This document shows, piece by piece, positions 2,808 through 11,024 of a DNA stretch of 64,000 bases. The translations under genes were made by a program, and so were the position numbers. How positions within the stretch are numbered: the stretch's first letter is position 1; the number at the start of each line of letters is the position of its first letter. The DNA is from Salegentibacter salinarum (GTDB taxonomy: Bacteria; Bacteroidota; Bacteroidia; Flavobacteriales; Flavobacteriaceae). The notes under the pieces are model-generated. The model had not been told where the DNA came from, ran no database searches, and worked only from the letters and a program-made list of their open reading frames with translations. Where the stretch lies: positions 62,001 to 126,000 of the forward strand of contig NZ_FUZC01000002.1 in NCBI RefSeq assembly GCF_900168115.1, given 5' to 3'.

Positions 2808-3003
2808 ATAACGATTTTTCAGGCGTTCCGTCGAAAACTTTACAATGCTCCTTGAAAATTATATAGTTTAGCTAAGCGTTAAGGGATAACCCTACTTCTT
2901 CCCAACCGCTGTCCCAACAATTACTTACAACGATTATCCAGCACATTTAAGCTATGTGTGCAAACCATTTATTTTATTTATTAATCTATTAATTCTTTAC
3001 AAA
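2808..3003 (+). promoter_or_regulatory. Duplicated curlin leader, copy 2
   Basis: This is the counterpart of 1301-1488, with the same order of conserved pieces. The palindrome is AGGG-ATAA-CCCT at 2882-2893, followed at once by CTACTTCTTCCCAA, then CAGCACATT and an AT-rich run. The four-base centre differs between copies (AAAA or ATAA) while both arms are kept, which argues for selection on the palindrome. Confidence 0.6.
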
Positions 3004-4161
3004 ATGAAAAAAGTAATTTTAGGAACGGCAGCTATTTTATGCGGCGCTGTTACATTCGCTCAAAACAATGACAGCGATGTAGATCAAAACGGAAATGCCA
3101 ACTCGGCAATTGTTAACCAAGTTGGATCAATCAATCTATCGGAGATCACCCAGGAAGGTGGTGACAGTGATGAAACTGCCAATCACGAGGCGACAGTGAA
3201 TCAGACTGGTACAGATAACTGGTCTTTTCTTACCCAAATTGATGATGATAACATCGCATTTATAAATCAAACTGGAGATATAAACACTTCCGATGTTTAT
3301 CAGGAAGGTTCTTCAAACCTTGCTAACGTAGATCAAACTGGTATTTTCAATAACGTATTGACAGTACAAATTGGTGATGCGGGTACTATCGAGCCAAATA
3401 ATGTTATCGACATTGATCAAATTGGTGGTCTTAATGACGCAAGTGTTTATCAAGAGGGAGCGTTAAATTCCTCGGTTGTGCTTCAGGAAGGTGATCTTAA
3501 TAGTGCCTTAGTTGAACAAATCGGGTCTGGAAATTCAGGAGATATCCGTCAGTGGGGTGATGGTAATTCTGCTTTTCAATTTCAGGGAAACCCTCTTGTG
3601 GATTTAGGAACGGATAATACTGCCATTATTAGACAGGGAGAAGCTCTTAGCGGATGGCAAAGTGCACAAAATAGTGTTGCTCAACAAGAGCAGTACGGCG
3701 AGGATAACTATGCTGAGATTACTCAAAGAGGAGATACTCAGAGAGCTATTCAGGCACAACTTGGGGACGATAACGTAGTGACTGCATACCAGGGTAATGA
3801 TAATAACTTTTCCAGACAATACCAGGAAGGTGATGGGAACGATGCCAATACCCAGCAATATTTCAGTGGGAACATTTCTTTCCAGGAACAAGTTGGTAAC
3901 GATAACATAGCTCACACTGTTCAAACAGGGCCTGGAGCAGGCTTGAATTTCTCTATATTAACCCAGAGTGGAAATGATAATCTTGCAATGCATACCCAGA
4001 ATGGTTTCTTCAATGATGCAAGTACTACTCAGGTAGGTGATATGCATATAAGCAATATCAACCAGCTGGGGAGTAATAATCAAACTACTGTAACTCAAAG
4101 TTCTCCAGGAGCTATAAGTGTTCCAGCTAGTTATCAACCACAAATGGTTGGAGGACTATAA
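3004..4161 (+). CDS. Curlin-repeat amyloid subunit (CsgA-like), 385 aa
   Basis: Predicted secreted amyloid subunit and the longest of the set. The reading frame opens at 2956, but the ATG at 3004 is preferred. It gives a signal peptide (MKKVILGTAAILCGAVTFAQ) nearly identical to that of the preceding gene, with mature start NNDSDVDQNG. Curlin half-repeats QxGxxNxxxVxQ fill residues 25-365. The C-terminus (about the last 20 residues, with SVPASYQPQMVGGL) is not repeat-like and is absent from the paralogs. The next curlin gene starts 43 bp downstream with no terminator, so the two are probably co-transcribed. N-terminal identity and the duplicated leader point to tandem duplication with the gene at 1489. 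Confidence 0.88.
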   Translation: MKKVILGTAAILCGAVTFAQNNDSDVDQNGNANSAIVNQVGSINLSEITQEGGDSDETANHEATVNQTGTDNWSFLTQIDDDNIAFINQTGDINTSDVYQEGSSNLANVDQTGIFNNVLTVQIGDAGTIEPNNVIDIDQIGGLNDASVYQEGALNSSVVLQEGDLNSALVEQIGSGNSGDIRQWGDGNSAFQFQGNPLVDLGTDNTAIIRQGEALSGWQSAQNSVAQQEQYGEDNYAEITQRGDTQRAIQAQLGDDNVVTAYQGNDNNFSRQYQEGDGNDANTQQYFSGNISFQEQVGNDNIAHTVQTGPGAGLNFSILTQSGNDNLAMHTQNGFFNDASTTQVGDMHISNINQLGSNNQTTVTQSSPGAISVPASYQPQMVGGL

Positions 4162-4204: not shown

Positions 4205-5101
4205 ATGAAAAAAGTAATTTTATGTTTAGGTGCACTAACTTTCAGTGCTGCTATGTTTGCTCAGTCAAATGAAAGTGACGTAGATCAGGATGGAGATCTT
4301 AACGCTGCAATTGTAACTCAGGTAGGAATGGATAACGAGGCTGTTACCAATCAATCGGGTACAAGCAATTCTTCAGACATAGATCAGGAAGGATTGGCCA
4401 ATGAGGCAGTAGTCCTTCAGGTAGGAACTTCAAATGATGCAATCGCTACTCAGGCAGGAGAAATAAACGACGCAAGGATAGACCAGGCAGGAGAAGGTCA
4501 TTCTGCTATTCAGGACCAGTCTGGGGATGATAACAGAGCCAATACTTTCCAAAGAGGTTGGGATAACACTTCAATGCAAGTTCAGGATGGTACGGCCAAC
4601 CAGGGAGTTGTAGTACAAAACCAGGGAGATAACCTTGCAGTACAATTTCAGTCAGGTTCTGGTAATTTCGGTCAGCTAAACCAAAACCATTTTGGAGCCG
4701 GAGGTTCTAATGAAGGTTACCAGGTTCAGGTAGGAGATAATAACGGAGCGTTTATTTACCAGGCTTCTCAGTATGGTAATGGCACCAATAATTCTACAGC
4801 TGTACAATTTCAACTTGGTGAAGATAACCATGCAGAAATAGAGCAACAAGGGAATAACCACATGGCTGTACAATTGCAGTATGGAAATGGAAACGAAGCT
4901 TACGATCTTCAAAAAGGGGCTAGTGAAGAATCATTAGTATTACAATCTGGTATGGATCATTTCAGTACTGTAGAACAAAACGGTTGGGGACATGACTCAG
5001 TGGTTTCACAGTATGGAAACAGCCACGAGAGTGATGTTTTCCAAACTGGAGGTCAAAACTCTTCTGTAGTTACCCAATATAATGGGATGACTGCCAACTA
5101 A
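4205..5101 (+). CDS. Curlin-repeat amyloid subunit (CsgA-like), 298 aa
   Basis: Predicted secreted amyloid subunit. It has a 20-residue signal peptide (MKKVILCLGALTFSAAMFAQ) followed by curlin repeats to near the end, closing with SSVVTQYNGMTAN. The signal peptide differs more from those of the two preceding genes than they do from each other, so this is an older paralog. It has no leader block of its own and lies 43 bp after the previous gene, so it probably depends on the promoter at 2808-3003. It is followed by a terminator-like hairpin at 5114. Confidence 0.87.
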   Translation: MKKVILCLGALTFSAAMFAQSNESDVDQDGDLNAAIVTQVGMDNEAVTNQSGTSNSSDIDQEGLANEAVVLQVGTSNDAIATQAGEINDARIDQAGEGHSAIQDQSGDDNRANTFQRGWDNTSMQVQDGTANQGVVVQNQGDNLAVQFQSGSGNFGQLNQNHFGAGGSNEGYQVQVGDNNGAFIYQASQYGNGTNNSTAVQFQLGEDNHAEIEQQGNNHMAVQLQYGNGNEAYDLQKGASEESLVLQSGMDHFSTVEQNGWGHDSVVSQYGNSHESDVFQTGGQNSSVVTQYNGMTAN

Positions 5102-5113
5102 ATTATAAATATT

Positions 5114-5148
5114 AAAGGCGGTATGGTAAACATGCCGCCTTTTTTTAA
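5114..5148 (+). terminator. Terminator or attenuator between curlin subunits and secretion genes
   Basis: The hairpin AAAGGCGGTATG / CATGCCGCCTTT has one G-T pair and a GTAAA loop, followed by seven T. It lies only about 10 bp before the next start codon, so partial read-through would give the secretion genes a lower level than the fibre subunits. Confidence 0.75.
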
Positions 5149-5158
5149 TATTTTTATA

Positions 5159-5656
5159 ATGAAAATGAAAATAACAATATTAAATATCATATTTTTCTTT
5201 TGTACGCTTGGCGTTTTTTCTCAAATTGAGAATATTCCAAGTACTTCTTTGTGGGAAATGCAAATGCTTTCAGAAAATATGAAGCCCGAAAGTGCCAGTG
5301 CGGCTAAATCATTAAATGAAAATAATGTTTTTATCAGGCAGGTAGGGGAGGGAAATAATGTTACCGCTAATATTAGTGCTAATAATACTGCTGTTTCTTA
5401 TACCCAGGAGGGTAACTTTAATCATATAGGTGTAGACGTTAATGTAGAAGATTACCAAAGCACTATTAATCAAAATGGTAATAATAATAACTTTTTTGAT
5501 CAAATGTATAACTCAGATACCGGTGCTTCCATGGAACTGAATCAAACGGGGGACAACCTACATTTTGAGCGATTTGGATCCAATAGTATAGGCGACAAGC
5601 TTCAGTTTAATATGACCGGGGAATCCAGAAGCATTATAGTTAGAAATTTTAATTAA
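5159..5656 (+). CDS. Minor-curlin-like exported protein (possible nucleator)
   Basis: A small exported protein of 165 residues. The start at 5159 is preferred over the longer frame at 5123 because it places a clean signal peptide at the N-terminus; an ATG two codons on (5165) is equally possible. After a 45-residue non-repeat lead it carries degenerate curlin-like units (FIRQVGEGNNV, YTQEGNFNHIGV, INQNGNNNN, LNQTGDN). The ladder is less regular and the last 40 residues leave the pattern. Its place between the main subunits and csgE, and its divergence, fit a CsgB-like nucleator or fibre-associated minor subunit. This is inference, since CsgB cannot be assigned by sequence here. Confidence 0.65.
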   Translation: MKMKITILNIIFFFCTLGVFSQIENIPSTSLWEMQMLSENMKPESASAAKSLNENNVFIRQVGEGNNVTANISANNTAVSYTQEGNFNHIGVDVNVEDYQSTINQNGNNNNFFDQMYNSDTGASMELNQTGDNLHFERFGSNSIGDKLQFNMTGESRSIIVRNFN

Positions 5657-5667
5657 CCTAAGAATTA

Positions 5668-6414
5668 ATGAAAATTTTTGTTTTTGTAATGTGCTTATGC
5701 ATACCCACTATTTTATTCAGTCAAAATTTTAATTCCAGGGTAGAAGCTATTATAAATACCAATGATAACAAAGATGATATCCTTGAAGTTACCGGAATTG
5801 CACAGAATAAAACCGATGTTAGTTATGGGTTGCGCTACGAACTTTCAGTCATCACTTCTAATCCAGAATTTTCCAATAATTCTTCGAAAAATTCACAATC
5901 TGGGTTTTTCACTCTTGGATCATACGAAACCACGGAGTTATCCACTACCTCGGTTTTTATAGATCCGCAGATGCAAACCATAATTTTATTGCTTATTTAT
6001 GACGAGGATGATGAATTGGTTGGTACTGCAAGAAAAGTTTATGAAGCATCCTCCGTTTCACGAGCAGCGAAAAATGAAAAACTGTCCTACAAAAAAGAGA
6101 ATGAGGGCATTCAGCTATACGGTTTAGTAACCGAAACTACTAAAACAAAACCGGGGAAGGATTTTTATGATTTTTTCTATCAGAAATATCAGTTAAGTCA
6201 AAATCCCGAAAATAAAATTATAGAAATTGACGAAATGATAAGTTTTGGAAGAACTACCAGGATCATGGTTAAAATTGAAAATCAAATAATCTTCCAGTTC
6301 TTTTCCCGTCCAAAATTAGACTACCTGGAAGAAATGGCAGAAAATGCCCTGCAGAGGGTAAACCGTTACTTTCAGGACCTACGAAAACAGAAACAACAAA
6401 TAATGCAATATTAA
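5668..6414 (+). CDS. csgE: CsgH-like/CsgE fusion: periplasmic curli chaperone and secretion adaptor
   Basis: A signal peptide (cleavage after LFSQ, about residue 19) is followed by two domains. Residues 20-125 look like an Ig-like CsgH/CsgC-type domain: short strands and a SGFFTLGSYETTELST segment resembling the CsgH pattern SGxFxLxxGExxxL. Residues 147-240 are a clear CsgE domain (YGLVTETTKTKPGKDFYDFF, then IIFQFFSRPKLDYLEE and a C-terminal helix). In E. coli, CsgE caps the CsgG pore on the periplasmic side and delivers CsgA, while CsgC/CsgH proteins stop subunits polymerising in the periplasm. Having both on one chain would couple the two jobs. E. coli CsgE is about 129 aa, so the extra N-terminal domain is real added sequence. 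The CsgE part is secure; the CsgH label is from pattern only. Confidence 0.82.
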   Translation: MKIFVFVMCLCIPTILFSQNFNSRVEAIINTNDNKDDILEVTGIAQNKTDVSYGLRYELSVITSNPEFSNNSSKNSQSGFFTLGSYETTELSTTSVFIDPQMQTIILLLIYDEDDELVGTARKVYEASSVSRAAKNEKLSYKKENEGIQLYGLVTETTKTKPGKDFYDFFYQKYQLSQNPENKIIEIDEMISFGRTTRIMVKIENQIIFQFFSRPKLDYLEEMAENALQRVNRYFQDLRKQKQQIMQY

Positions 6415-6429
6415 CCCAAACTATTATAA

Positions 6430-6837
6430 ATGAAACTAACCTTTACACTTTTATGTATTTTCGGATGTTTTTATGCATCCAGCGCACAGGACCTGGTGTA
6501 TCAACCAACAAATCCTGCTTTTGGCGGCAATCCTTACAATTACCAATGGTTGTTAAGTTCAGCCGAAGCTCAAAATAGCTTTGAGGATCCCGATGCTTCT
6601 TTAGGAAGGCAGCAAGAATCGGAATTGGAAAGGTTTACTTCCAGTTTAAATTCACAATTATTAGGACAGGTTACAAGGAGATTGTTTACCGACCAATTTG
6701 GTCAGGGTGCACTGGAAGAAGGAACGTATTCTTTTGGAAGCCTGGCAGTAGATATTTATCCATCAAACGAAGGTTTGGTTATAAATATTCTCGATACAGA
6801 AACCGGCGAGCAAACCCAGGTAGTAATTCCTAATTAA
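6430..6837 (+). CDS. csgF: Curli assembly factor CsgF
   Basis: The signal peptide ends in ASSAQ (about residue 19). The mature N-terminus carries the CsgF signature: YQPTNPAFGGNPYN followed by LLSSAEAQNSFEDPD, matching E. coli FRNPNFGGNPNN...LLNSAQAQNSYKDP. In the family this N-terminal peptide inserts into the CsgG barrel to form a second constriction. The C-terminal part (TGEQTQVVIPN) matches the family end. Length, 135 aa, is normal. It is 15 bp after the csgE fusion and 6 bp before csgG, clearly in one operon. Confidence 0.93.
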   Translation: MKLTFTLLCIFGCFYASSAQDLVYQPTNPAFGGNPYNYQWLLSSAEAQNSFEDPDASLGRQQESELERFTSSLNSQLLGQVTRRLFTDQFGQGALEEGTYSFGSLAVDIYPSNEGLVINILDTETGEQTQVVIPN

Positions 6838-6843
6838 TAAAAT

Positions 6844-8229
6844 ATGCGTTTTTATAATTTTACAATTATTGTTGCAATTGCATCAATACTAACTTCTTGC
6901 GGTTCTTATTTAAGTCAGCCAGTTGATTTTGAAGCACCGCGCACAGGAGAAATATCAGAGACAACAAAGCGTTTAAGAAGTTTACCAGAGCCAGAAGAAA
7001 AAGTTGTTGTAGGTGTTTACAATTTTAGGGATTTAACGGGGCAGTATAAGCCTTCTGAGGTTGGAAGTACTTTTAGTACAGCAGTAACCCAGGGCGCGAC
7101 TTCAATTTTAGTTAAGGCCCTGGAAGATTCCGGATGGTTTACAGCAATTGAAAGGGAGAATATCGGTAACCTTTTAAACGAGCGAAATATAATAAGATCT
7201 ACACGCCAGGAATATCAAGGCGGTAATAGTAGCGAACCACAGCTACCACCGTTGTTATATGCGGGAATATTATTAGAAGGTGGTATTGTTTCTTATGACA
7301 CCAATATTATGACGGGTGGTTTAGGTGCCAGATATCTTGGTGTTGGTGCTTCCACTCAGTACAGGCAGGATAGGGTTACCATTTATTTAAGAGCCATTTC
7401 TACGTCTAGTGGAAAGATCCTAAAAAATGTTTATATCTCTAAAACTATTCTTTCTCAGGCTCTGGATGCAAGTTTATTTAAATATGTAAGTTTTCAGCGA
7501 TTATTAGAGGCCGAAACAGGTTTTACCCGGAATGAACCGGTACAAATTGCTGTAAAAGAAGCTATCGAAAAAGCCGTTGAAGGCCTGGTCGTCGAAGGTA
7601 TTGAGGATAAAATCTGGACTCCAAAAGGAGGAGACACTATTGCCAGTCAGTTAGTTAATGATTATAGTTTAGATAAAGAGGAAGAAGAACTAACAGGATT
7701 GTATAATAGAAAATATATTGAAAGGAAATATAATAGTGCATTGGGAGTAAGCTTAGGGGCATCCCTTTTAAGTGCAGATTTTTCTAAAAATTATCTCGCT
7801 CCTCAACTTACCATTGATTATAAGAACCATATTTACCGCGGGTTAGCTCTTCAATTAAGTGGAAGTGTGTTTGAGCTCAATGGGGGAGCGGCCTTTACAG
7901 AAACTTTTGGAAGCCTGGGTGCAGGGCTGAACTACACCGTTTTGCCTAACGACAAGTTAACTCCTTTTGTACAGGCCGGTGCAGGCGTTCTAAGCAGGCT
8001 GTCAGAAATCGAAATTTCAGACGCGAAAAGCAATTTCTTTAAATTACAATACGGTCTTGGAATGGAATATCTAATAACGGATAATCTGGGCTTAAAAGGT
8101 TTTGCCACCCACAATATAACACTTAGCGACGAGTTGGATTACACTATAAATGGAACCCGCGATGATCATTACTTCAATTTCGGGATAGGTGTAAATTTCT
8201 ATTTAGGAAAATCTAATAACAATAATTAA
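6844..8229 (+). CDS. csgG: CsgG curli secretion channel with C-terminal beta-barrel-like extension
   Basis: A lipoprotein: signal with lipobox LTSC, Cys19. Residues 50-262 are a full CsgG domain (VYNFRDLTGQYKP, FSTAV, NLLNERNIIR, GGLGARYLGVGASTQY, SKTILSQ, RLLEAETGFTRNEPV), which in the family forms a nonameric outer-membrane pore. Proteobacterial CsgG ends soon after this point (277 aa). Here about 35 linker residues lead to a 165-residue domain (298-461) of alternating hydrophobic strands ending in NFGIGVNFYLG, typical of small OmpA/OmpW-like barrels. Constriction region: Phe77 aligns with E. coli Phe56, while Tyr51 and Asn55 are replaced (segment KPSEVGSTFSTAV, one residue longer). The barrel assignment is inference from strand pattern. 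Confidence 0.92.
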   Translation: MRFYNFTIIVAIASILTSCGSYLSQPVDFEAPRTGEISETTKRLRSLPEPEEKVVVGVYNFRDLTGQYKPSEVGSTFSTAVTQGATSILVKALEDSGWFTAIERENIGNLLNERNIIRSTRQEYQGGNSSEPQLPPLLYAGILLEGGIVSYDTNIMTGGLGARYLGVGASTQYRQDRVTIYLRAISTSSGKILKNVYISKTILSQALDASLFKYVSFQRLLEAETGFTRNEPVQIAVKEAIEKAVEGLVVEGIEDKIWTPKGGDTIASQLVNDYSLDKEEEELTGLYNRKYIERKYNSALGVSLGASLLSADFSKNYLAPQLTIDYKNHIYRGLALQLSGSVFELNGGAAFTETFGSLGAGLNYTVLPNDKLTPFVQAGAGVLSRLSEIEISDAKSNFFKLQYGLGMEYLITDNLGLKGFATHNITLSDELDYTINGTRDDHYFNFGIGVNFYLGKSNNNN

Positions 8230-8233
8230 AATT

Positions 8234-9727
8234 ATGAAAAGCATAAAATTTATATACACGCTTTTTTTAGCGATCCTGGTTTCAAGTTGTAGCGAAGAAA
8301 CGATAGATAACGTTCAGGTGGGTACCATAACTGGAACCGTTGTTACTGAAGGGAATTTTGAACCAGTGCAAAATGCCAGAATTTCTACAAACCCGGCTAC
8401 TTCTACTGTTTTTACTGATGAGAATGGAGAATTCATACTAAAGAATATTCCCGCCCAGGAATATTCTGTTCAAGCAAGAAAAGATAGTTTATTAACCCAA
8501 TTTCAGGGCGTTGAAATTACTGCAGACGGAGAAGTAAATGTTGTTTTTGAAATGAAACCTGAAACGGCAGATAACCTGGCACCAAAAGCGCCTGAATTAG
8601 TTTCTCCTGAAAATAATACCGAAGGACTTTCCAGGGATGTTACTTTTACCTGGACTTCAGAAGATGTTGACGGGGATGACTTAAATTATCAATTAGAAAT
8701 TAGGAACGATCGCAATAATGATGTTCAAACCTATTCCAATATTTCTGATACAACTTATACCGTAGACAACCTGAATTATGGTTATAAGTACTTTTGGCAG
8801 GTACGCGTAAGTGATAGTATAAATGAAGATGTTCTTAGTGAAGTGAATACTTTTAGTACCCTGGAATTTCCAAAGAGCAGGATTGCTTATGTCAAAAAGA
8901 TAAATGGGAATAATGTAATTTTTTCACGTGATCTTAACGAAAATGAATATCAGTTGACTTCAGCCAATCACAATAGTTTTAGACCAAGAAAAAATCACAG
9001 AACGGATAAAATTGCTTTTCTAAGAACCATTGGAAGCCAAACACATCTTTTTACAATGAATTTAGATGGATCTGGAGAGCGTCAAATTACCAGCAACATT
9101 CCTGTTAATGGTTTTAAACTGGACAAGGTAGATTTCTCGTGGGCTAATGATGGCGCCAGTCTTGTGTATCCAAATTTCGATAAACTTTATAGAGTTAATG
9201 CTACCGGAGATGGAACTACACAAATTTATAGTGAACCCGATGGTAAATTTATAACTGAAGTTGATGTAAGTAATGATAATTCCAGAATGGCGCTTTCAGT
9301 AAACGATGCTGATGGATATAATGCATCTATTTATCTAATAAATAACGAAGGGCAGAGGACAAATACAATTATTTCAAATATTCAAGGAGCACTTGGAGGT
9401 ATAAACCTATCGGTTGATAATAATAAAGTTTTATATGCCAGAGATGTTTCAGGTTTTGAAAGTGAAGATTACCGGCAACTTAACTCGCAATTATTTGTCT
9501 ATAATATAAACACTCAGGAGACCATGAATGTTAGCGACAATAAACCAGATGGAACAAATGATCTGGATCCCAGGTTTTCCCCGAATGAAGCTGAGGTTAT
9601 TTTTGTAAATACTTCTAACGATGGAATTTCCCAGAATAATATTTATTCTACCGAAATTAATCCTGGTACCACTGAAGAAAATAGGGCCTTATTGTATGAG
9701 GATGCCTCTATGCCCGATTGGGAATAA
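8234..9727 (+). CDS. Curli-operon lipoprotein: carboxypeptidase-regulatory-like, FnIII-like and beta-propeller domains
   Basis: Lipoprotein signal with Cys19 (LVSSC). Residues about 30-115 are a carboxypeptidase-regulatory-like fold (GTITGTVVTEG, DENGEFILKNIP). About 120-210 is a fibronectin type III-like module (PELVSPENNTEG, FTWTSEDVDGDDLNYQLEI, YKYFWQVRVSDS). From about 215 to the end are TolB/WD40-like beta-propeller repeats (RIAYVKKINGNNVIF, KIAFLRTIGSQTHLFTMNLD, MALSVNDADG). It starts 4 bp after csgG and is followed by a strong terminator, so it is the last gene of the secretion operon. E. coli curli operons have no counterpart. A surface scaffold, fibre anchor or assembly-checking role is plausible but unproven. 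Confidence 0.75.
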   Translation: MKSIKFIYTLFLAILVSSCSEETIDNVQVGTITGTVVTEGNFEPVQNARISTNPATSTVFTDENGEFILKNIPAQEYSVQARKDSLLTQFQGVEITADGEVNVVFEMKPETADNLAPKAPELVSPENNTEGLSRDVTFTWTSEDVDGDDLNYQLEIRNDRNNDVQTYSNISDTTYTVDNLNYGYKYFWQVRVSDSINEDVLSEVNTFSTLEFPKSRIAYVKKINGNNVIFSRDLNENEYQLTSANHNSFRPRKNHRTDKIAFLRTIGSQTHLFTMNLDGSGERQITSNIPVNGFKLDKVDFSWANDGASLVYPNFDKLYRVNATGDGTTQIYSEPDGKFITEVDVSNDNSRMALSVNDADGYNASIYLINNEGQRTNTIISNIQGALGGINLSVDNNKVLYARDVSGFESEDYRQLNSQLFVYNINTQETMNVSDNKPDGTNDLDPRFSPNEAEVIFVNTSNDGISQNNIYSTEINPGTTEENRALLYEDASMPDWE

Positions 9728-9845: not shown

Positions 9846-11024
9846 ATGAGTCAGGAAGTTAGTAAAAGATATGCTCAGCGCGGCGTTTCAGCAGGAAAGG
9901 AAGATGTTCACAATGCGATTAAAAATGTAGATAAAGGTTTATTTCCAAAAGCATTTTGCAAAATTGTGCCCGATTATCTTACCGGTGATGCAAATCATTG
10001 CTTAATTATGCACGCCGATGGTGCAGGCACCAAATCTTCCCTGGCTTATATGTATTGGAAAGAAACAGGAGATCTTTCGGTTTGGAAAGGCATTGCCCAA
10101 GATGCACTTATTATGAATATAGATGACTTGCTTTGTGTGGGCGCTGTAGATAACATCATGCTTTCTTCAACCATTGGCCGGAATAAAAATAAAATTCCGG
10201 GTGATGTAATTTCAGCAATAATCAATGGTACTGAAGAACTGATTGCCGAATTAAAAGAATTTGGAGTAGAAATTCATTCTACCGGCGGTGAAACTGCAGA
10301 TGTTGGCGATTTGGTCCGTACGATTATTGTAGATTCTACTGTAACCGCCAGAATGGAAAAAGCAAAAGTTATTGATAATGCCAATATTAAACCCGGAAAT
10401 GTGATTGTTGGTTTGTCTTCCTCCGGCCAAGCTTCTTACGAAAAAGAATACAACGGCGGAATGGGCAGTAATGGACTTACTTCTGCGCGCCACGATGTGT
10501 TTTCTAATGATTTAGCTGAAAAATATCCCGAAAGTTTTGATAATGATATTCCTGAAGAGTTGATCTATTCAGGAACAAAATCTTTAACTGATTCGGTTGA
10601 AAATTCACCTTTAGATGCAGGAAAATTAGTGCTTTCTCCAACCCGAACTTATGCACCAATTATTAAGGAAATCCTTTCTAAATTCAGCAATAATGAGATT
10701 AATGGAATGGTGCATTGCAGTGGCGGGGCACAAACAAAGATTCTTCATTTCATAGATAATCTGCATATTATTAAAGACAATATGTTTGAGGCACCACCCC
10801 TTTTTAAGCTAATTCAGCAGGAAAGCAAAACCGACTGGAAAGAAATGTACCAGGTTTTTAATATGGGACACCGCATGGAGCTTTATGTAAACCCTGAAAT
10901 TGCTGAAGAGATAATCGCTATTTCCAAATCCTTTAATGTAGAGGCTCAAATTATTGGTAAGGTAGAAGGTTCAGAAGAAAAGAAACTAACGATTAAGAGT
11001 GAATTTGGGGAGTTTTCCTATTAA
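9846..11024 (+). CDS. purM: Phosphoribosylformylglycinamidine cyclo-ligase (AIR synthetase)
   Basis: Catalyses the ATP-dependent ring closure of formylglycinamidine ribotide to aminoimidazole ribotide in de novo purine synthesis, in the cytosol. Key family segments are DGAGTK at 58-63, the Asp-rich NIDDLLCVGA near 91-100, the GGET motif at 147-150 and a GLSSSG segment near 190. At 392 aa it is longer than the roughly 345-aa proteobacterial enzyme but in line with my recollection of the Bacteroidota form. It is transcribed alone from a TATCTTTG promoter, and its neighbours are unrelated. Confidence 0.9.
   Translation: MSQEVSKRYAQRGVSAGKEDVHNAIKNVDKGLFPKAFCKIVPDYLTGDANHCLIMHADGAGTKSSLAYMYWKETGDLSVWKGIAQDALIMNIDDLLCVGAVDNIMLSSTIGRNKNKIPGDVISAIINGTEELIAELKEFGVEIHSTGGETADVGDLVRTIIVDSTVTARMEKAKVIDNANIKPGNVIVGLSSSGQASYEKEYNGGMGSNGLTSARHDVFSNDLAEKYPESFDNDIPEELIYSGTKSLTDSVENSPLDAGKLVLSPTRTYAPIIKEILSKFSNNEINGMVHCSGGAQTKILHFIDNLHIIKDNMFEAPPLFKLIQQESKTDWKEMYQVFNMGHRMELYVNPEIAEEIIAISKSFNVEAQIIGKVEGSEEKKLTIKSEFGEFSY

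Follow-up and report, generated by a model that had tools for sequence, protein, structure and literature searches.

The stretch of DNA that we analysed (the window, 64,000 nucleotides of Salegentibacter salinarum) carries a curli operon in which curlin-repeat genes are followed by a divergent CsgA-like gene, a csgE-like gene, csgF, a csgG-barrel gene and a lipoprotein gene, and then by purM. CsgE, CsgF and curlin subunits beside csgG were matched by PF10627, PF10614 and PF07012, respectively. The features, in window coordinates, are:

1489-2535 and 2956-4161: further curlin-repeat subunits (PF07012)
4205..5101, + strand: curlin-repeat subunit (PF07012)
5123..5656, + strand: candidate for a divergent CsgA/B-like minor subunit (matches below cut-offs)
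5668..6414, + strand: CsgC/CsgH-like domain (residues 25-125) fused to CsgE (151-243), from profiles and predicted structure
6430..6837, + strand: csgF (PF10614, E 1.6e-44)
6844..8229, + strand: csgG-barrel gene, 461 aa, one intact, stop-free open frame
6844..6900, + strand: putative lipoprotein signal peptide with lipobox LTSC, through Cys19 (sequence and alignment)
6982..7623, + strand: CsgG domain, residues 47-260 (PF03783, E 2.3e-67; E. coli CsgG structures)
7633..7692, + strand: linker helix, residues 264-283 (alignment and AlphaFold2)
7735..8205, + strand: eight-stranded outer-membrane barrel, residues 298-454 (PF13505, hydropathy, AlphaFold2, Foldseek)
8122..8166, + strand: L4, the loop joining strands 7 and 8 (residues 427-441), predicted to be extracellular from the deduced side of the membrane
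8234..9727, + strand: lipoprotein with CarboxypepD_reg, fn3-like and TolB/WD40-like propeller domains (the latter two below cut-off)
9846..11024, + strand: gene that we take to be purM, the downstream flank common to barrel-only genomes

A further curlin gene, at 70-1058, spans three frames and is therefore either broken or mis-sequenced. The flanking genes are, judging by their protein families, presumably purM and glutamine synthetase III (GSIII). Among ten csg loci of curli makers, i.e., that of the window and nine chosen from 30, the operon was flanked by purM in all ten and by GSIII in nine. The divergent gene at 5123..5656 has a homologue in 78 of the 80 related csgG loci and its product is perhaps a minor subunit or nucleator. 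In the csgE-like product the CsgH model scored 26.5 bits, below its cut-off of 35, and a structure model built with 48 loci predicted residues 25-125 as a seven-stranded sandwich whose best PDB matches were CsgH (2n59) and CsgC (2xsk); 74 of the 76 homologues matched in the 80 loci were 230 aa or longer. A free-standing CsgC/CsgH-like relative of 133 aa, 42% identical, lies just upstream of the window in the contig (L207:11393-11791), and CsgH sub-families in Bacteroidetes are mentioned in an earlier work (PMC4838910). The lipoprotein at 8234-9727, with homologues in 80/80 related csgG loci and near csgG in five of six outgroup stretches, is perhaps an unnamed curli accessory.

The initial annotation had proposed, for the gene at 6844..8229, a complete CsgG domain followed by a linker and a small outer-membrane barrel, and the analysis supports each of these parts, the barrel as a predicted one. 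We take the N terminus to be that of a lipoprotein, as is usual for CsgG; Cys19 of the lipobox was invariant among 63 aligned sequences. PF03783 matched at 226.8 bits (cut-off 20.8) over profile positions 3-208 of 210, and residues 14-259 are the span aligned by the E. coli CsgG chains in PDB. The score for the NCBIfam equivalog PRK15184 stayed under its cut-off (217.7 vs. 505 bits); this is presumably a model of the close enterobacterial form of CsgG and, taken as such, its missed cut-off does not exclude CsgG identity. The linker helix is conserved, with Y274 invariant and K278, L286, Y287 and R289 nearly so, in or just after it, in the 63 sequences. PF13505 (OMP_b-brl) matched residues 303-452 above its cut-off of 28.7 bits, with 31.3 bits when the full protein was scanned and 34.8 when residues 280-461 were scanned alone, and was matched at E<=0.001 by 51 of the 63 sequences. 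Identity of the C-terminal domain with PorG (NF052316) was considered and rejected, its 28.4 bits being far under the cut-off of 130.

The structure was predicted with AlphaFold2 from the window protein and 62 homologues (63 sequences), selected from 80 named-genome loci by dropping L099, which has a stop in the match, and others so as to thin near relatives. In the predicted structure eight antiparallel strands (298-310, 317-331, 334-346, 352-365, 372-385, 397-410, 415-426 and 442-454) close as a barrel. In blocks of ten residues the pLDDT of the strands was mostly 83-95, while loops went as low as 64 (431-440, in L4). For the whole model the mean pLDDT was 69.6 and the pTM 0.50, with several stretches of the CsgG part under 50, which is what we would anticipate for membrane hairpins when a single chain is modelled. 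A Foldseek search against PDB gave, after the CsgG entries, OmpA, NspA, Ail, OprF, OmpW, OmpX and the like (TMt 0.81 for NspA, up to 0.74 for OmpA and 0.70 for OprF), and there was no soluble barrel in the best 50 of 1051 matches. The amphipathic strands that had been read in the extension were recovered as an alternation of hydrophobic and polar residues in the family-averaged hydropathy, a pattern that taken alone cannot separate the inside of a barrel from its outside. That ambiguity, and the periplasmic position of the CsgG C terminus (given in PMC12822426), would suit a soluble periplasmic beta domain of lipocalin type, for example a dock for CsgE or substrate. We regard such a domain as highly improbable because PF13505 is above cut-off, the best Foldseek matches apart from CsgG are outer-membrane proteins, and the standalone form described below has an apparent Sec leader of its own. 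As to domains and fold, the protein is almost certainly CsgG, a linker and an eight-stranded outer-membrane barrel. Eight-stranded outer-membrane proteins (OMPs) have both chain ends on the periplasmic side, so that L4 would lie outside.

We searched for the window protein in a sample of 397 genomes of its family and 120 matched, 86 of them with CsgG and 34 with a barrel-only gene without CsgG match. The barrel was present in all 86 CsgG-bearing genomes, full length in 85 and split over two contig pieces in one; G516, among the 86, also holds a barrel-only piece. Two full-length csgG-barrel genes each were found in G640, G568 and G647. A fusion produced by annotation or assembly error, with the barrel absent from close homologues, was rejected on account of the single open frame and of the same architecture in 86/86 CsgG-bearing family genomes. 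One stop in the matched stretch was reported for four of these genomes (G135, G503, G656 and G146); in the first of them the alignment (L011) runs to the end of its frame. In a sample of 296 genomes of the phylum there were 46 matches, comprising 29 full-length fusions in eleven family codes, including other orders and classes, nine genomes of one family code (f17) that have CsgG without a matching full barrel, a single standalone barrel and, in other ORFs, seven weak matches that resemble the barrel. The f17 matches end at residue 262-293 in eight genomes; in the ninth (G316) the match runs through two stops and reaches 352. Among 84,980 named genomes at least 586 relatives were confirmed, and the best 80 of them all reach residue 450 or beyond, a reach that choosing the best favours. 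The viral-contig CsgG loci (IMG/VR, best 80 of 82) all stop at about residue 258-282, the barrel being unmatched there. From these four sets of counts the fusion is the rule for CsgG in the sampled family. It is an old trait, and one that CsgG in general does not share. The domain architecture noticed in the initial annotation is therefore to be seen as a rule of the sampled family that recurs across the phylum.

In the 63 sequences D429, G437, D441, G379, G381 and G404 are invariant. When 78 fused, 16 standalone and 18 outgroup barrels were compared, D429, D432, G437 and D441 of L4 and the glycines 379, 381, 406 and 449 were kept in at least 88% of each group. Five residues, D370, E422, K438, R439 and F446, are the most frequent ones at their positions in the fused barrels, at 67-85% (67% for K438 and 85% for R439, both in L4), and occur in under 20% of the standalone ones; nine other barrel positions show the opposite bias, common in standalone and rare in fused barrels. 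Residues 370 and 438-439 are thus the positions that we propose as possible contacts with other components of the curli system. L4 resembles loops of other Bacteroidota small barrels and, with the weak PorG match, this likeness means that its conservation may be structural instead of functional.

Loci were read for 26 of the 34 barrel-only genomes, the first set consisting of 15 loci (14 genomes). At E<=0.001 no CsgG was found in any of the 34 genomes (0/15 and 0/19), and CsgF and curlin repeats were absent from all 15 genomes tested for them. The barrel-only genes of the first set are 217-240 aa long, with a Sec-type leader (judged by eye) replacing CsgG, and the frames of the second set have likewise such a leader by eye, except L250 and the short second copy in L253; in L256 it is visible only in part. 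These genes occupy the csg site. Upstream of the barrel, GSIII was found in 14 of the first 15 loci, and purM was found downstream in the same number; where one of them is missing, the contig ends there. L037 has one extra gene before purM. Both flanks were found in 11/11 further loci (L253-L263), and L252, the second piece of G516, starts just before the barrel and has purM after it. The homologue of the lipoprotein at 8234-9727 was unmatched in 27 of the 28 standalone stretches searched, L250 being the exception. With tblastn no trace of csg genes below E 0.07 was found in the barrel-only gap. No origin was found for the signal peptide of the standalone barrel. Some curli-less genomes have two standalone barrels in tandem (L036, L044 with L045, and L253, whose far copy is short).

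Among 13 standalone barrel genes of the first 15 loci pN was below pS in 78/78 pairs, with a median ratio of 0.48 that is rough, synonymous sites being near saturation, so the gene looks to be under purifying selection. The locus L250 (G547) is of a different kind and contains GSIII, a barrel of 190 codons that starts in the linker and has no signal peptide, an intact lipoprotein gene and purM. It looks like a second, separate deletion whose barrel is dead. This apparently dead barrel could be taken as a sign that the domain is a passive passenger, an ordinary small OMP from an ancient fusion that makes no difference to curli and persists by chance or because deletions there would damage csgG, as could the greater variability of the barrel with respect to CsgG and its far fewer invariant columns. 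We find that unlikely, given that none of the 86 CsgG-bearing family genomes has lost the barrel, though a stop after the CsgG domain would suffice, that the six residues named above are invariant, and that the freed barrel looks to be under purifying selection. The curli-less lineage has kept the barrel with its own Sec-type leader, and the barrel is therefore probably useful without CsgG, curlin or CsgF; the barrel-only genes at the csg locus suggest that its function is separable from that of the pore.

Most standalone loci also hold, on the GSIII side of the barrel, a micro-ORF of about 45 codons (39-54 as called; e.g., L104:660-782 and L033:7587-7724) that in most loci starts MKKLLLS..ALM.ATLLFSQ. 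A profile of 104 curlin N termini was run against all ORFs of at least 25 aa from the first 15 loci, 1103 in number, and 13 of the 14 top ranks went to the micro-ORF (E 4e-10 to 2e-4). Of those 15 loci 13 have it; of the other two, L041 carries a form of 19 codons and the start of L045 is a contig end. It recurred in 11/11 further loci (L253-L263), making 24 standalone loci in total, and was not found in L250 or L252. In the tandem loci L036, L044 and L253 it lies between the two barrels or after the first one; L036 and L253 have it between the two, as probably does G008, with its copies on two contigs. Among 90 csg loci it was seen only in L104, adjoining the standalone barrel there, in a comparison where many stretches end 6 kb before csgG and may miss the site. 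In 13 micro-ORFs the leader had pN below pS in 78/78 pairs (median 0.26) and the tail in 65/78 (median 0.71), both ratios being rough, and the leader looks to be under purifying selection. We take the micro-ORF to be what is left of the first curlin gene; it may by now be a separate small gene. Its curlin-like leader points to former curli genes at the barrel-only site.

Two genomes hold both forms of the barrel. In L104 (Winogradskyella aurantia) a standalone barrel and the micro-ORF lie between GSIII and purM, and a csg operon with a fused CsgG lies beyond purM; the two barrels fall in two different tree groups, fused and standalone. G516 holds a fused and a standalone barrel as well, in an assembly that is 80% complete and thus possibly a mixed bin. 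Mutual exclusion of the two forms, true of the 34 barrel-only genomes, is broken by L104 and G516 and was discarded as a rule. Because of these two genomes, the loss of the operon was not a simple swap everywhere, and the csg operon of L104 was either regained or is a copy that stayed.

The direction of the change was approached with trees of the barrel domain. Two trees held 13 of the 80 named-genome loci, and in a third these were joined by eight rows from seven loci. Five outgroup rows were omitted from the second tree and seven from the third, most of them on long branches, and the trees are unrooted. The standalone barrels form one clade in all three (support 99 in the first, 100/96 in the second and, with one row more, 99/98 in the third), which sits inside the fused barrels of the family, the nearest branches having 89/91, 88/89 and 96/87 in the second tree. 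Deeper branches are weak (24/4 in the second tree; 51/75, 50/71 and 84/63 in the third). An AU test did not reject a topology that unites all fused barrels of family and order to the exclusion of the standalone ones (p 0.21), so that nesting of standalone within fused barrels is favoured, not proved. In the outgroup families the two domains are fused as well, and the six outgroup stretches that were read showed neither GSIII nor purM next to csgG. Location at the csg site, the Sec-type leader and the curlin-leader-like ORF together indicate that the operon was lost and the barrel kept. We hold it very probable that the fused form is ancestral and that the standalone lineage lost the operon. 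The unrooted trees and the AU test leave space for the reverse order, in which a csg operon arriving at the site would have taken up a gene for a small OMP located before purM, with later spread of the fusion to other orders and classes. Such an order is quite improbable in view of the fusion in eleven family codes, of GSIII and purM not found beside csgG in the six outgroup stretches, of the nesting in the best trees and of the micro-ORF, which points to earlier curli genes at the site.

On the best reading, the gene belongs to a Bacteroidota csg operon and encodes the pore through which curli are secreted; each CsgG subunit bears its own predicted eight-stranded barrel, tied to CsgG by a conserved linker helix that starts on the periplasmic side. 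CsgG would form the usual nonamer with its 36-stranded pore, and the barrels, inserted by BAM, would sit as a collar of nine around it, tethering the pore in the membrane and displaying the conserved acidic loop L4 outside. A ring of nine barrels, perhaps with a part in anchoring fibres or CsgF, had been suggested in the initial annotation. By calculation, nine eight-stranded barrels would stand about 50 A from the pore axis and about 34 A apart; the C-alpha diameter of such a barrel being about 16 A, some 18-20 A are left between neighbouring C-alpha surfaces. With this spacing the collar fits with lipid between the barrels and is, on these model dimensions, sterically possible. The same gap means that the barrels need not touch, and they could instead act apart, without a regular collar, linking the CsgG ring to neighbouring complexes or to the lipoprotein at 8234-9727, whose homologue is in 80/80 loci. 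This we find doubtful, since the linker is short and largely helical and would keep the barrels near their ring, and the lipoprotein was unmatched in all standalone stretches searched save L250. The collar acting as an anchor is a plausible mechanism that we advance tentatively. In the simplest view the barrel alone would hold a surface or envelope ligand through L4, and in the pore it would place and anchor the secreton at ligand sites. The best overall explanation, a pore with tethered barrels where the barrel is useful apart from curli, seems to us reasonably probable. More speculative, though possible, is that the curli secretons of Bacteroidota are ten-barrel machines, with a 36-stranded pore and nine tethered barrels, and the barrel an autonomous surface-binding module, so that after deletion of the operon in one lineage the barrel and a curlin leader peptide both survived as conserved genes, separate from each other and serving a new role apart from curli.

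Structural knowledge of curli secretion comes from E. coli, whose CsgG is a plain pore. If the proposed architecture is true, each curli-pore subunit has a second membrane-spanning part in many families of another phylum, and the insertion, holding and spacing of the pore would be changed. CsgG assembly reportedly needs no BamA (going by the title of an article of 2015 by Dunstan et al.), and with a BAM-type barrel on each subunit this independence could be put to the test in another phylum. In the barrel-only genomes nature has itself set up an experiment that parts barrel function from pore function, and for CsgG as a nanopore scaffold a built-in anchor would be of practical interest. Curli in Bacteroidetes had been described (Dueholm 2012, PMC3521004, whose accessible text has the size of CsgG unaffected by that of CsgA), and the accessible part of PMC12822426 presents curli operons as widespread in Bacteroidota. 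As far as the accessible parts go, a second barrel is unmentioned by NanoporeDB (PMC13397529), where 3,608 CsgG-like proteins were mined and trimmed sequences used, and the fused form is not seen in OMPdb (PMC9581022), which has CsgG as PF03783. No description of a barrel extension of CsgG was found in the titles and abstract openings of the open-access papers listed, and the domain pair may well be listed uncommented in domain databases. In PMC7304575, a CsgG-CsgF complex for cryo-EM had been trimmed with chymotrypsin, which took off the 25 C-terminal residues of mature CsgG; the complex thus tolerates changes at this end of CsgG.

Compared with known systems, the window protein shares with E. 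coli CsgG (PDB 4uv3, 3x2r, 6si7 and 6l7a) the CsgG domain and the neighbouring csgE, csgF and curlin genes. However, E. coli CsgG has 277 aa, with no room for the barrel domain that the window protein has. The CsgG of viral contigs (IMG/VR) has likewise the CsgG domain in common and the barrel unmatched. The chaperones CsgC and CsgH resemble in fold the N-terminal domain of the csgE-like product, which in the window is fused to CsgE, and PorG of the type IX secretion system is a weak match to the C-terminal domain. NspA, Ail, OmpX and the N-terminal domains of OmpA and OprF have a fold like that of the window barrel (TMt up to 0.81; PF13505), but unlike these small OMPs it is tethered to the C terminus of a secretion pore subunit. 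We read the barrel as a possible anchor in the membrane that presents a conserved loop at the surface; the parts are familiar, and their combination is new.
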